Shown piece by piece: positions 12,387 to 38,123 of a stretch of 64,000 nucleotides of DNA; position 1 is the stretch's first letter, and each line of letters begins with the position of its first letter. The DNA lies in the NCBI RefSeq assembly GCF_001708185.1, contig NZ_MDDN01000003.1, positions 310,001 through 374,000 of the forward strand, in the 5' to 3' direction. The notes beneath the pieces are model-generated. The model searched no databases, was not told where the DNA came from, and worked only from the letters and a program-made list of their open reading frames with translations. The DNA comes from Lysinibacillus xylanilyticus (GTDB taxonomy: Bacteria > Bacillota > Bacilli > Bacillales_A > Planococcaceae). A program made the position numbers and the translations under genes.

Positions 12387-13640
12387 ATGAACATAAAATT
12401 ACGTCTAAAAATAATGATTTTTCTGCAGTTTTTTATTTGGGGATCGTGGCTTGTTACACTCGGCTCTTATATGATCAATACGTTGAATTTTACTGGCTCA
12501 CAAGTTGGAATTGTGTATAGTTCAATTGGTCTTGCTGCCATTTTTATGCCAAGTCTTATAGGCATTATTGCCGATCGTTGGGTAAAAGCAAATATTTTAT
12601 ATGGAATATTACATTTTCTCGGTGCGATTACCTTATTTGTCGCTGCTCAAATTTCAGATCCAACTTTCATGTTTTGGATCATGTTCTTTAACTCAATCGT
12701 TTATATGCCAACACTTGCCTTATCGAACACAATTTCTTATGTTAGCCTAGAAAAAGAAGGGTTTGATATTGTAAAGGACTTCCCACCTATTCGTGTCTAC
12801 GGGACAATTGGTTTTATACTTGCAATGTGGATTATCAGTCTTGCTAAACTTGAATTAAGTAATATTCAGCTTTTCATAGCTAGTGGAGCGTCGATGTTAC
12901 TTGCACTATACTCATTTTCTCTTCCAAATTGTCCAACTTCCAATGCAATAAAGGATAAGTCGTTGGTAAGCCTTTTGGGACTTGACGCTTTTATTCTTTT
13001 TAAACAAAAAAAAATGGCATTGTTTTTCCTTTTTTCAATGCTATTAGGTGTTGCACTTCAAATTGCAAATACATTTGGTGATCCTTTTTTACACGACTTC
13101 GCATTGAACCCAGAATATAAGGATAGCTTTGCTGTTAAATACCCAGCTATTTTATTATCAGTGTCACAAATTTCAGAAGTATTCTTTATTCTGACTATTC
13201 CTTTTTTCTTACGTAGATTTGGTATTAAGAAAGTAATACTTATTAGCATGGTTGCATGGACATTACGCTTTGCATTATTTGGATACGGAAGTCCAGTCGG
13301 TGTAGGATTCTTCTTGTTATTGTTATCGATGATCGTTTACGGATGTGCATTTGATTTCTTTAATATTTCGGGGGCCATTTTTGTAGAAAAAGAAGCCGAT
13401 CCTCGAATGCGGGCAAGCGCTCAAGGATTATTCAGCACAATGGTCAATGGAATCGGCGCCTATGTGGGGGCTATCTTTAGCGGAACAGTAGTTGACTATT
13501 TCACAGTTGACGGAGTAAGGAATTGGCAAAATATTTGGTTATTTTTCGGAGCCTATACGTTCGTTTTAGCCATAATTTTTGCGATCACATTTAAATATAC
13601 AAATGACAGCAATGAAATGAAAATTCAAAAAAGAATATAG
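12387..13640 (+). CDS. NupG-like nucleoside:proton symporter (MFS)
   Basis: 417 residues, twelve membrane helices, no long soluble loops. The text closely follows enterobacterial NupG/XapB: LKIMIFLQFFIWGSWLVTLGSYM at the start, DIVKDFPPIRVYGTIGFI in helix 5, FALFGYGSPVG, and YGCAFDFFNISGAIFVEKE with ASAQGLFSTMVNG near helix 10. These are nucleoside-H+ symporter hallmarks, so purine and pyrimidine nucleoside uptake is expected. GGAGG precedes ATG 12387. It stands alone; no nucleoside catabolic genes adjoin. The unusually close match to a proteobacterial/Bacteroidetes-type family suggests transfer. Confidence 0.88.
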   Translation: MNIKLRLKIMIFLQFFIWGSWLVTLGSYMINTLNFTGSQVGIVYSSIGLAAIFMPSLIGIIADRWVKANILYGILHFLGAITLFVAAQISDPTFMFWIMFFNSIVYMPTLALSNTISYVSLEKEGFDIVKDFPPIRVYGTIGFILAMWIISLAKLELSNIQLFIASGASMLLALYSFSLPNCPTSNAIKDKSLVSLLGLDAFILFKQKKMALFFLFSMLLGVALQIANTFGDPFLHDFALNPEYKDSFAVKYPAILLSVSQISEVFFILTIPFFLRRFGIKKVILISMVAWTLRFALFGYGSPVGVGFFLLLLSMIVYGCAFDFFNISGAIFVEKEADPRMRASAQGLFSTMVNGIGAYVGAIFSGTVVDYFTVDGVRNWQNIWLFFGAYTFVLAIIFAITFKYTNDSNEMKIQKRI

Positions 13641-35300: not shown

Positions 35301-35642
35301 ATGCCTTTGACTACAGGTCCAGTTGAAAATACAGGGAATCAACCAGCAAATGCAAATAGCGTTCGTATTAAAATTCTTAATCTCACTGGAGGTACGCTCA
35401 CTGGAACAATCAGAGTTTTCAGACTGAATGGCACAAGACAACTACTGTCAACAACTTCCTTTAGCGTAGGTGCAAATGCTTCTACTTTTTTCACTCGAGG
35501 TTTAGGACTCTCAGCACAATATGAAGTAGAAATTTCTCCAAATCAAACTGGCGGATTATTTAGTGTTTACGGGCTAACAGCTTCAGGTGTTATCATTACT
35601 GCCCAAAGATTTGTTAACTCAGAATTAACACAAATTCTTTAA
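35301..35642 (+). CDS. Small beta-rich protein, paralog B
   Basis: 113 residues, same length as paralog A at 10244 and alignable without gaps. Conserved ends (MPLTTGP.ENTGN and TAQR.VNSELTQIL) and core FRLNGTRQLLST. Substitutions are mostly conservative, suggesting both copies remain under selection. Family not recognised. Same GGAGGTGAATTTCAA site. It is followed by a duplicated 150-base non-coding block. Confidence 0.8.
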   Translation: MPLTTGPVENTGNQPANANSVRIKILNLTGGTLTGTIRVFRLNGTRQLLSTTSFSVGANASTFFTRGLGLSAQYEVEISPNQTGGLFSVYGLTASGVIITAQRFVNSELTQIL

Positions 35643-35696
35643 GTGTTAGAACAGGATTTTTCATTTAAAGGTTAAAGTTAATTCAACACTTCCCTT

Positions 35697-36030
35697 TGTA
35701 CCCACTCGAAATTTTTAAATATAATAGAAGAAAGTCACTTATTTTTATTTTTAAATGAGTGACTTCTTATTGTTCTAAGAAGATTTCTTTTCAACCTTGC
35801 TTGCTTATCTAAATATCCCGAATTGCTTGGATCATCTTTACGCTCAAGTCATTTCTTCTTTTTGTGAAAACCCCTCACTTGTACCCACTCAAAATTTATA
35901 TATTAATAGAAGAAAGTCACTTATTTTTTAAATGAGTGACTTTTTATAGTTCTTATAAGGTTTCTTTTCAATCTTGCTTGCATATCTAAATATTCCTAAT
36001 TACGTGGATCATCTTGACGCTCAAGTCATT
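35697..36030. repeat. Tandem duplication of a hairpin-bearing block
   Basis: Two imperfect copies (35697-35853 and 35880-36030, period 183) start TGTACCCACTC and end CGCTCAAGTCATT. Each contains AAGTCACTT...AAATGAGTGACTT, a terminator-like hairpin (copy 2 ends in five T). The same GTCACT(C/T)ATT hairpin recurs at 61985-62026 and 62794-62832. Confidence 0.75.
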
Positions 36031-36194
36031 ACGTCTAATTTTTATTCATTTTTACGTATACAAGTTTCAAGTCATCTCGACTTCTTTCTATTAGTATTAT
36101 TTTGTAATTTTTTGGGTATGCAATGCATATAATATTAATTAATATAAACGGCATACATTCATTGAATGAAGAATATAATTCTGGAGGGTGTTAA

Positions 36195-37319
36195 ATGAAT
36201 ACAATTAAATCTTTAATTTTCCCCCAAGACTTGAATAGATTGACCAAAACTCTACTTAAAGAGGTTTGTAGTGATATGACTTTAGAAGCAACAGGTAATG
36301 TAAATGAACTAGCAAGTAGAGTATGGAACGCTTTTGAACGTATTGAAGGAGATGTTCTTACAACGATAAGCAATAATATTTTTACTGGGGCCGTTTCTTT
36401 AGTTTGGTATCGAACTACAAATCCAGCTGGTTTAACTGGGCTTAAACAAAGTATTATTAATAAAATGCCATTTAACCCTTTCGAAACAGTAATTACACCA
36501 AATTGCGAAAATGTTCCCATTGAACCTGCCATTATTGCTGCTACTGAAATCGATGGTTCACAAGCTTATTATTTAAGGTTTATTCATAGAACCGGGGTAA
36601 ATGTAGATTACTTTTTAACTCATCGAAGAGAATACATTAAACATGAAATTACGACAGTTTATATTGATGAAGTTAAGGGAATAATTGAAGTACGAGCAAG
36701 TTCAGCAGTTGCAAAGAAAATTATTGCTGGATTAGCTAAAATTGTAGATGATGAATATGAATTCAAACAATATGATTTCTTACAGAAGTATGGCGGAACT
36801 CTTGAGCCTTTAGCTGATATTCTTCAAGGAAGGCTTATTGATGCTACAGGAAGACCAGCAGGATTAGTAAATACATTTGAAGAAACGCAAGGTAAATCTA
36901 TTGTAAGAATACTTTCCGCAATTGATGAATACTATACTAATGGTGAATTATCAGCTCTTGAGCAAAACTTAAATAGCGAAGATATTACCAGTATTTTAGA
37001 AACAACACCTTTTACTTTGTTACTTTTAAGTGGTCTTGAAACAATTGGATTAGGTAGCATTAGAGAGTTAAGAGGCTTACCATTGTATAATTATTTAGAG
37101 CCTTATTTATCCAAACAAAAAGGATCAATACTATTTGAACATAGTGTTGGTGGTGTGGTACAAGAATATTCTATTCGAATTGGCGTAACTACAAAGACAT
37201 TTAAGTTCAATGTATTTGCGTCTGAACATGTATTGGATTATATTAGAGAAAAATTGATTCTGCGAGGTAAAAGTTTTGAGCAATTTAAAACCATGGGAAA
37301 TTTCTCAAAAAATAGATAA
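36195..37319 (+). CDS. Unrecognised 374-residue cytosolic protein
   Basis: I do not recognise the family. No signal peptide; one moderately hydrophobic helix at about residues 272-290 (TPFTLLLLSGLETIGLGSI). The first third is mixed alpha/beta, the middle carries VYIDEVKGIIEVRASSAVAKKIIAGLAKI, the last third ends in GGVVQEYSIRIGVTTKTFKF. TGGAGGG precedes ATG 36195. Its last 44 bases overlap the start of the next gene, which has its own ribosome site inside this one, so the two are translationally coupled. It is the first gene of a compact cluster in an otherwise repeat-rich accessory stretch. Confidence 0.75.
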   Translation: MNTIKSLIFPQDLNRLTKTLLKEVCSDMTLEATGNVNELASRVWNAFERIEGDVLTTISNNIFTGAVSLVWYRTTNPAGLTGLKQSIINKMPFNPFETVITPNCENVPIEPAIIAATEIDGSQAYYLRFIHRTGVNVDYFLTHRREYIKHEITTVYIDEVKGIIEVRASSAVAKKIIAGLAKIVDDEYEFKQYDFLQKYGGTLEPLADILQGRLIDATGRPAGLVNTFEETQGKSIVRILSAIDEYYTNGELSALEQNLNSEDITSILETTPFTLLLLSGLETIGLGSIRELRGLPLYNYLEPYLSKQKGSILFEHSVGGVVQEYSIRIGVTTKTFKFNVFASEHVLDYIREKLILRGKSFEQFKTMGNFSKNR

Positions 37320-37665
37320 TGCACTCGAAGCAATTGCTATAAGTAAAGTTGATAAATTTTACCATAGTTATATTGCAGAAATAACTGGCTTACCTCTTGG
37401 AGTAGTTATTGATAAATTATCTGAATTAGAAAAACAAGAAGCGCTCGTTATAGAATTAGAATTCCACTGTGAGGAATGTAGTAGAAGTATTTTAACCGCC
37501 AATAAACATGAATTGGAAAATATGGATTCACTTACTTGTAAGTATTGTGGGGCCGAAAATTGTTTTGATCCTTTAAACGCTATTCCAATCATCAAATTAA
37601 GTGAAGATTTCAAACAAAGTTTTTCTAAAAAAAAAATAATAACAAAAGGGCTAATGTCGGGTTAA
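37276..37665 (+). CDS. Winged-helix-like protein with zinc ribbon
   Basis: 129 residues from TTG 37276, supported by GCGAGGT about 8 bases before. Residues 1-60 look like a helix-turn-helix (IDNALEAIAISKVDKFYHSY, ITGLPLGVVIDKLSELEKQ). Residues 62-95 hold two CxxC knuckles (HCEECSRS and LTCKYCGAENC), a probable zinc ribbon. The frame crosses a run of ten A (37627-37636) and stops 29 bases later. Reading -1 at that run joins it to the next frame, giving one protein of about 283 residues. Confidence 0.65.
   Translation: MSNLKPWEISQKIDNALEAIAISKVDKFYHSYIAEITGLPLGVVIDKLSELEKQEALVIELEFHCEECSRSILTANKHELENMDSLTCKYCGAENCFDPLNAIPIIKLSEDFKQSFSKKKIITKGLMSG
37627..37636 (+). other. A10 slippery run at gene junction
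   Basis: Ten consecutive A. A -1 ribosomal slip or one extra A by transcriptional slippage would fuse the zinc-ribbon gene to the following frame (SFSKK then NNNKRANVGLSKENKPE), which is open without any stop from 37629 to 38123. A sequencing indel in the run gives the same picture. Confidence 0.6.
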
Positions 37666-37790
37666 GTAAAGAAAATAAACCTGAGAGTTTAAGAGAAATT
37701 ATTGATATTTTAGCAAAAGAAAATTCTGGTCAATTATTAGATACAGTATCGAAACTCGGGCAAGTCACTATTATTTTAGGAGATGGTTAT

Positions 37791-38123
37791 ATGGGTGAAT
37801 CTAGTAAATATGGTGGTTTAACTTTCGGAGAAAACAAAGGTAATATAACGATTGAGAACAACGGTACACTGAATCAAGGAATAGCTAGCCGATCTGATGA
37901 TATTATTCTTGCGTTAAAACAACTTCACGAAGATATTCAATGCCTATCAGATGAACAACGAGAAATTGCAGAAGCGCATTTTGAACTCCTTCAAACTCAT
38001 ATAAACAATGGAGATAAAGAGAAAGCTAAAAAACCATTAGAGAAATTGACTGAAATACTTGGTGTAATTACCTCTCTTATAACTATTGCTTCTGCCTTAG
38101 GACTTGGAATTCCTTTAAAATAA
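37791..38123 (+). CDS. Small protein with C-terminal hydrophobic helix (or C-terminal half of fused protein)
   Basis: 110 residues from ATG 37791, which has AGGAG eight bases before, so independent initiation is possible. The same frame is open from 37629 but offers no other start, and the upstream part (SLREIIDILAKENSGQLLDT, VSKLGQVTIILGDGY) is clearly protein-like. Residues 15-32 are a Gly/Asn-rich strand segment (GENKGNITIENNGTLNQG), then a long amphipathic helix pair, and the end LGVITSLITIASALGLGIP is a probable membrane helix. Two products, a long fused form and a short form, are conceivable. Confidence 0.6.
   Translation: MGESSKYGGLTFGENKGNITIENNGTLNQGIASRSDDIILALKQLHEDIQCLSDEQREIAEAHFELLQTHINNGDKEKAKKPLEKLTEILGVITSLITIASALGLGIPLK

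Follow-up and report, generated by a model that had tools for sequence, protein, structure and literature searches.

The 64,000-nucleotide stretch of Lysinibacillus xylanilyticus DNA analysed here (contig NZ_MDDN01000003.1, positions 310,001 to 374,000; hereafter the window) carries a compact set of three open reading frames, ORF1 to ORF3, with a run of ten adenines (A10) at the junction of the second and third. We concentrate on that junction, on its counterparts in related loci, and on what the encoded proteins may do. The features, in window coordinates, are as follows.

36183..36187, plus strand: GGAGG, probable ribosome-binding site of ORF1, read from the sequence
36195..37319, plus strand: ORF1, 374 residues, ATG start; SAP-like N-terminus at about residues 13-48 and RdgC-like fold over residues 62-356, predicted to bind DNA; matches phrog_38742
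37276..37665, plus strand: short form of ORF2, 129 residues, TTG start; winged helix and zinc ribbon predicted from the model of a relative, P0025
37468..37548, plus strand: zinc-ribbon region of ORF2, CxxC...CxxC, residues 65-91, read from the sequence
37627..37636, plus strand: A10 run, predicted site of slippage, connecting ORF2 with the frame of ORF3
37637..37790, plus strand: 51 codons from the run to an internal ATG, readable without a stop in the ORF3 frame alone, which has no ATG, GTG or TTG here
37778..37782, plus strand: AGGAG, 8 nt 5' of the internal ATG
37791..38123, plus strand: ORF3, 110 residues, ATG start; C-terminal domain with a Gly/Asn-rich segment and a helical part predicted from the P0025 model
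38055..38111, plus strand: hydrophobic C-terminal helix of ORF3, mean Kyte-Doolittle 2.17 over 19 residues

The start of ORF2 falls within ORF1, the two frames overlapping by 44 nt, and if reading shifts by -1 at the A run, the ORF2 and ORF3 frames join without a stop into a query of 282 residues. An earlier note on this DNA, made from its letters alone, had described the three frames and their coordinates, the TTG start inside ORF1, the ten adenines and the AGGAG/ATG of ORF3, and the sequence confirms that layout; the joined product had been put at 283 residues.

The A run is not peculiar to the window. Our table holds 29 related loci, L029 and L069 having been dropped as partial ORF1 matches and L048 as the same prophage as L041, and an ORF2-like gene follows ORF1 in all of them. 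In 25 of the 29, the longest stretch of adenines between 250 and 520 nt past ORF1 is a run of nine to eleven (A9-A11) and sits at the ORF2/ORF3 junction, so that a long A run within coding sequence is kept in relatives, as a site of transcriptional slippage should be. The exceptions are a Paenibacillus locus with A8 at a contig end (L045), two viral loci whose longest run lies elsewhere and whose frames are fused (L049 and L050), and L. agricola (L018, genome G014), where A6-C-A5 replaces the run, an early ORF2 stop lies just before it, and the assembly is listed with 5% contamination. The L. agricola lineage seems either to have lost the fusion or to reflect an assembly fault; it retains ORF3 and its AGGAG/ATG. 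A sequencing error in the window is rejected because, of the 12 further Lysinibacillus genomes that carry the module, 11 keep the run and only L. agricola does not. Matches to nine adenines are also fewer in the window than expected (5 against 14.4, both strands), and the earlier note's view of the junction as meaningful is upheld. Avoidance of A or T runs becomes visible at a length of nine in a large share of bacterial genomes (PMC1088944). Among predicted window genes of at least 100 residues, just one further A or T run of nine or more occurs, an A9 at 13006-13014 within a nucleoside permease gene (12387-13640).

What the run connects differs among lineages. A -1 shift is needed in 19 of the 25 run loci (12 Lysinibacillus, Cytobacillus, Sporosarcina, Desulfosporosinus, Moorella, G515, G704 and G988), +1 in three (Desulfoscipio, G574 and G674), and none in three (G308; G373, whose protein is Brevibacillus P0026; and G502, whose protein is Exiguobacterium P0025). 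The frame relation varies while the run stays, and therefore the conserved element is the run, not the frame. Judged on sequence, a varying frame relation around a conserved run is a better description of the junction than a fixed '-1 frameshift'. Mapped onto an ORF1 tree, the frame states change at least seven times, and fewer times if only well-supported branches are counted; the tree has 23 rows, long branches and several open forks, and excludes L034 as well as L018, L022, L024, L041 and L065 (length filter). The loci seem to represent a protein family without a name, whose recoding site has been retained in distantly related Bacillota; it is the run that has been kept, not the frame.

Phase variation, in which replication slippage alters the length of the run and toggles the long form, would fit the different frame relations of distant lineages. 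We regard it as very unlikely, however, as all 12 Lysinibacillus run loci require -1 (L034, one of the 12, can be read for only 19 codons past the run, where its contig ends) and a search of 5.8 billion proteins returned no in-frame Lysinibacillus version. That search also failed to find the predicted long form for Lysinibacillus, since gene callers split the gene.

Coding potential was tested between the run and the internal ATG. Across 11 Lysinibacillus sequences (L018 and L034, the latter at a contig end, being excluded), the ORF3 frame is free of stops throughout the 51 codons, while the other two frames have 4-9 and 3-7; pN/pS over these codons is 0.46, a weaker constraint than in ORF2 (0.26) or ORF3 (0.28). 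In 22 out-of-frame loci of 23, all except L065, the ORF3 frame opens at -27 to +2 nt relative to the run. Nine proteins are natural in-frame fusions, seven of them retaining KKK at the junction; the joined protein thus exists as a unit.

These observations bear on another alternative, that the cluster is three separate genes and ORF3 is made solely from its own AGGAG/ATG, with no fusion. That start is well kept within the genus: all 12 Lysinibacillus sequences that extend as far as the ATG have AGGAG 8 nt 5' of it, L018 with its lost run among them, and the earlier note's own start for ORF3 is sustained to that extent. Against separate genes stand the upstream codons open in the ORF3 frame alone, which lack any ATG, GTG or TTG ahead of the ORF3 ATG in 7 of 12 loci, and the nine relatives that are single fused proteins. 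Outside Lysinibacillus, moreover, a strict AGGAG or GGAGG 7-8 nt 5' of an in-frame ATG was seen only in L065 and the two viral contigs (first three ATGs of each); in G515 and these viral contigs it is GGAGG, 7 nt 5' of the ATG. We consider this alternative highly improbable as a full account. The conserved AGGAG nevertheless makes a separate C-terminal product possible, and in Lysinibacillus the C-terminal domain may also be produced alone.

The surroundings of the run bear on how the fusion would be made. A zero-frame stop lies 9-35 codons from the run start in all 22 out-of-frame run loci, and in all three in-frame run loci stops fall within about 10 codons in both other frames. Stops close by in the alternative frames are a feature of transcriptional slippage: in Thermus dnaX, polymerase slippage makes both lengths and stops lie nearby in both other frames (PMC5009743). 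Our genes resemble Thermus thermophilus dnaX, with its A9 run within coding sequence, two lengths with a common N-terminus and nearby stops (PMC1088944, PMC5009743), the two lengths being a prediction here. They differ in often lying beside prophage genes and in a long form that is -1, +1 or in frame by lineage. It is likely, from these sequence patterns, that RNA polymerase slips at the A9-A11 run.

Programmed -1 ribosomal frameshifting on A-AAA-AAA heptamers within the run could also yield the long form. Nineteen of the 25 run loci require -1, the Lysinibacillus zero frame reads AAA AAA AAA, so that a slippery A-AAA-AAA heptamer is present, and folding downstream of the run is mildly favourable (z -0.5 to -1.8) in 10 of 11 Lysinibacillus. 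The direction is not shared by the relatives, however, since three of the 25 need +1 and three no shift while the run is kept. None of the 11 Lysinibacillus loci tested has a Shine-Dalgarno-like motif within 20 nt upstream of the run, the mean downstream folding z is only -0.6 over 24 loci, and L044 and L067 retain A9 although their zero frame lacks three lysines there. Ribosomal frameshifting as the source of the long form is in our estimate unlikely, though not negligible; ribosomal slippage is possible for the -1 loci, with transcriptional slippage favoured. If KKK is taken as fixed, the chance that all the lysine codons are AAA comes to about 1.8e-6 by a rough estimate (13 rows, Sporosarcina dropped as a near-copy of Cytobacillus); this figure carries no weight in our argument. 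The loci of varying frame form a natural series for telling transcriptional slippage from ribosomal frameshifting.

We therefore lean, with reasonable but incomplete confidence, toward a slippage-made protein of two lengths acting with a DNA-binding partner. In the model we propose, slippage of RNA polymerase at the run would let one gene give a short winged-helix/zinc-ribbon protein and a long form that adds the C-terminal domain, the slippage being of the transcriptional kind. ORF1, with its SAP-like N-terminus and RdgC-like fold, would bind DNA, and the winged helix and zinc ribbon would dock the long form onto DNA or onto ORF1. On sensing of foreign or replicating DNA, the number of C-terminal domains recruited might then depend on the ratio of short to long form.

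The domains predicted for this protein agree only in part with what had been proposed. Winged helix and zinc ribbon, predicted from the model of P0025, match the helix-turn-helix-like and zinc-ribbon protein of the earlier note. Its membrane helix holds for the window, where the segment is strongly hydrophobic, but not for the family: among 27 loci whose C-terminal part is complete, a segment above 1.6 (mean Kyte-Doolittle) is found only in 12 Lysinibacillus and in Desulfosporosinus. Fourteen of the 27 have none, and at most one was found per locus, only the best segment being scored; a membrane-helix effector is not supported as a family trait. The C-terminal domain of an in-frame relative, L066, matches the PADLOC candidate PDC-M14B (E 1.2e-7), hinting that this domain is common to other candidate conflict systems; window ORF3 reaches only E 0.003 against PDC-M14. 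This B-type C-terminus occurs in one of four in-frame relatives scanned. The likeness to PDC-M14 is confined to the C-terminal part, and PDC-M14A is not among the nine families listed for 15 ORF1 members at E 0.1. A fold search with the long form returned nothing at E 0.001 or better, and its helical-bundle and MarR-like matches are generic.

For ORF1, the best fold match is RdgC, and its best viral fold matches include phage proteins with 'recombination-associated' in their names. Residues 4-354, nearly the whole length, match phrog_38742 (E 3.4e-22), which is listed as of unknown function. The SAP motif is found in ORF1 members: PF02037 matches 5 of 15 (best 1.5e-5) and is absent from the window protein's own matches, while profile positions 13-48 match DEK at E 0.012. 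RdgC as a sequence family is not among the six Pfam families listed for the 15 members at E 0.1, and DUF4747 is not among the Pfam hits listed for the window protein and the 15 members. A sequence relation to lambda RexA has a probability of 0.2%, and RexA homology by sequence is rejected. Nothing named was found for ORF1-3 in Pfam at curated cut-offs, in NCBIfam or in PHROGs, where matches are to unnamed families only; a housekeeping or phage structural family is rejected, in line with the earlier note, which had recognised no known family.

The genome sets searched (151 genomes; 32 of the genus, 261 of the order, 398 of the class and 398 of the phylum) overlap. With the window's own genome counted, ORF1 is present in 15 of the 151 (one match partial) and ORF2 in 14 of the 151 and 13 of the 32 genus genomes; ORF1 profiles hit 15 of the 261 order, 8 of the 398 class (two partial) and 4 of the 398 phylum genomes. 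Distant carriers are Cytobacillus, Sporosarcina, Desulfosporosinus, Paenibacillus, Moorella, Desulfoscipio and two near-identical viral contigs. No match was found in plasmid records queried with the operon DNA or in phage records queried with the ORF1 protein. Prophage lysis genes adjoin 6 of the 20 neighbourhoods examined, reading by eye having recognised none in the other 14. Pfam holin and/or amidase matches lie beside the module at L047, L049, L050 and L078, and an amidase at L046; in L. macroides (L114/L041) the lysis genes were recognised by reading, with tail-fibre matches at L041. L049 and L050 are near-copies, which leaves about five independent lysis-gene neighbourhoods. The module is probably a two-gene operon of prophage origin. 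Eight Lysinibacillus genomes carry a short-chain dehydrogenase neighbour (at least 81% identical) with the module within 2 kb in all eight, so there it occupies a settled chromosomal locus; no empty site was seen at this locus across the eight.

An operon of this kind invites comparison with prophage exclusion. RexA has the RdgC fold (PMC11077077), and RexAB-type systems are two-gene prophage exclusion systems with a membrane partner (PMC12894663, PMC6426596). Like lambda RexAB and Sbash gp30/gp31 (PMC11077077), our module is two-gene and prophage-associated, with an ORF1 of RexA-type RdgC fold and a downstream partner. Unlike them, ORF1 has no sequence link to lambda RexA and no DUF4747 hit. 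Nor does the partner resemble RexB: it is a winged-helix/zinc-ribbon protein, and four membrane helices were not found (at most one segment above 1.6 in the C-terminal part). By analogy, a Rex-like exclusion or host-control role is proposed, tentatively, as the most likely use.

It is equally defensible, and as tentative, to see in ORF1 and its partner an RdgC-like modulator of recombination or replication. The top fold match and the recombination-associated phage proteins speak for it, as does the lack of any PADLOC match at E 1e-12 among the 71 neighbours examined around seven loci outside Lysinibacillus. The same count rejects a defence island and answers in the negative the earlier note's proposal to look for defence genes near homologs; its defence or conflict module is supported only indirectly, by the RdgC fold common with RexA and the lysis genes beside several relatives. 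RdgC is not known to have a SAP-like N-terminus or a two-length partner. Both are predicted here, and they argue against a modulator of this kind, as do the prophage lysis genes adjoining the module in several relatives. ORF1 shares the RdgC-type fold (Chl4/Iml3/CENP-N of the kinetochore being less securely comparable) but differs in its SAP-like N-terminus, the lack of an RdgC Pfam match and its other partner gene. The module also brings a SAP-like N-terminus and an RdgC/RexA-type fold together in an operon associated with prophages.

It is tempting to speculate, as a long shot, that the A run is itself a sensor. Modification or replacement of host polymerase by an incoming phage, or a change in nucleotide pools, would shift slippage, changing the ratio of short form (buffer) to long form (effector-bearing) and arming the RdgC/RexA-fold DNA-binding partner in exclusion; were this so, selection would keep the run but not the frame. 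No description of the ORF1/ORF2 family or of slippage in exclusion systems was found in the literature searched (including PMC3711429 and PMC5009743), subscription journals and preprints lying outside the search.

Some smaller observations concern the surroundings. In L. macroides (L041/L048/L114) the module lies in a prophage-like region beside an integrase-like gene (by reading), lysis-like genes and tail genes, and the ORF1 frame stops after 267 residues. Upstream of ORF1 in the window, an orphan gene of 113 residues (35301-35642) has no Pfam or NCBIfam match. L037 and L039 have an ORF of 113 residues 5' of ORF1, the same length as the orphan and compared by length alone. Between the orphan and ORF1 (35690-35990), inspection by eye shows a pair of similar stretches that have a short inverted repeat.
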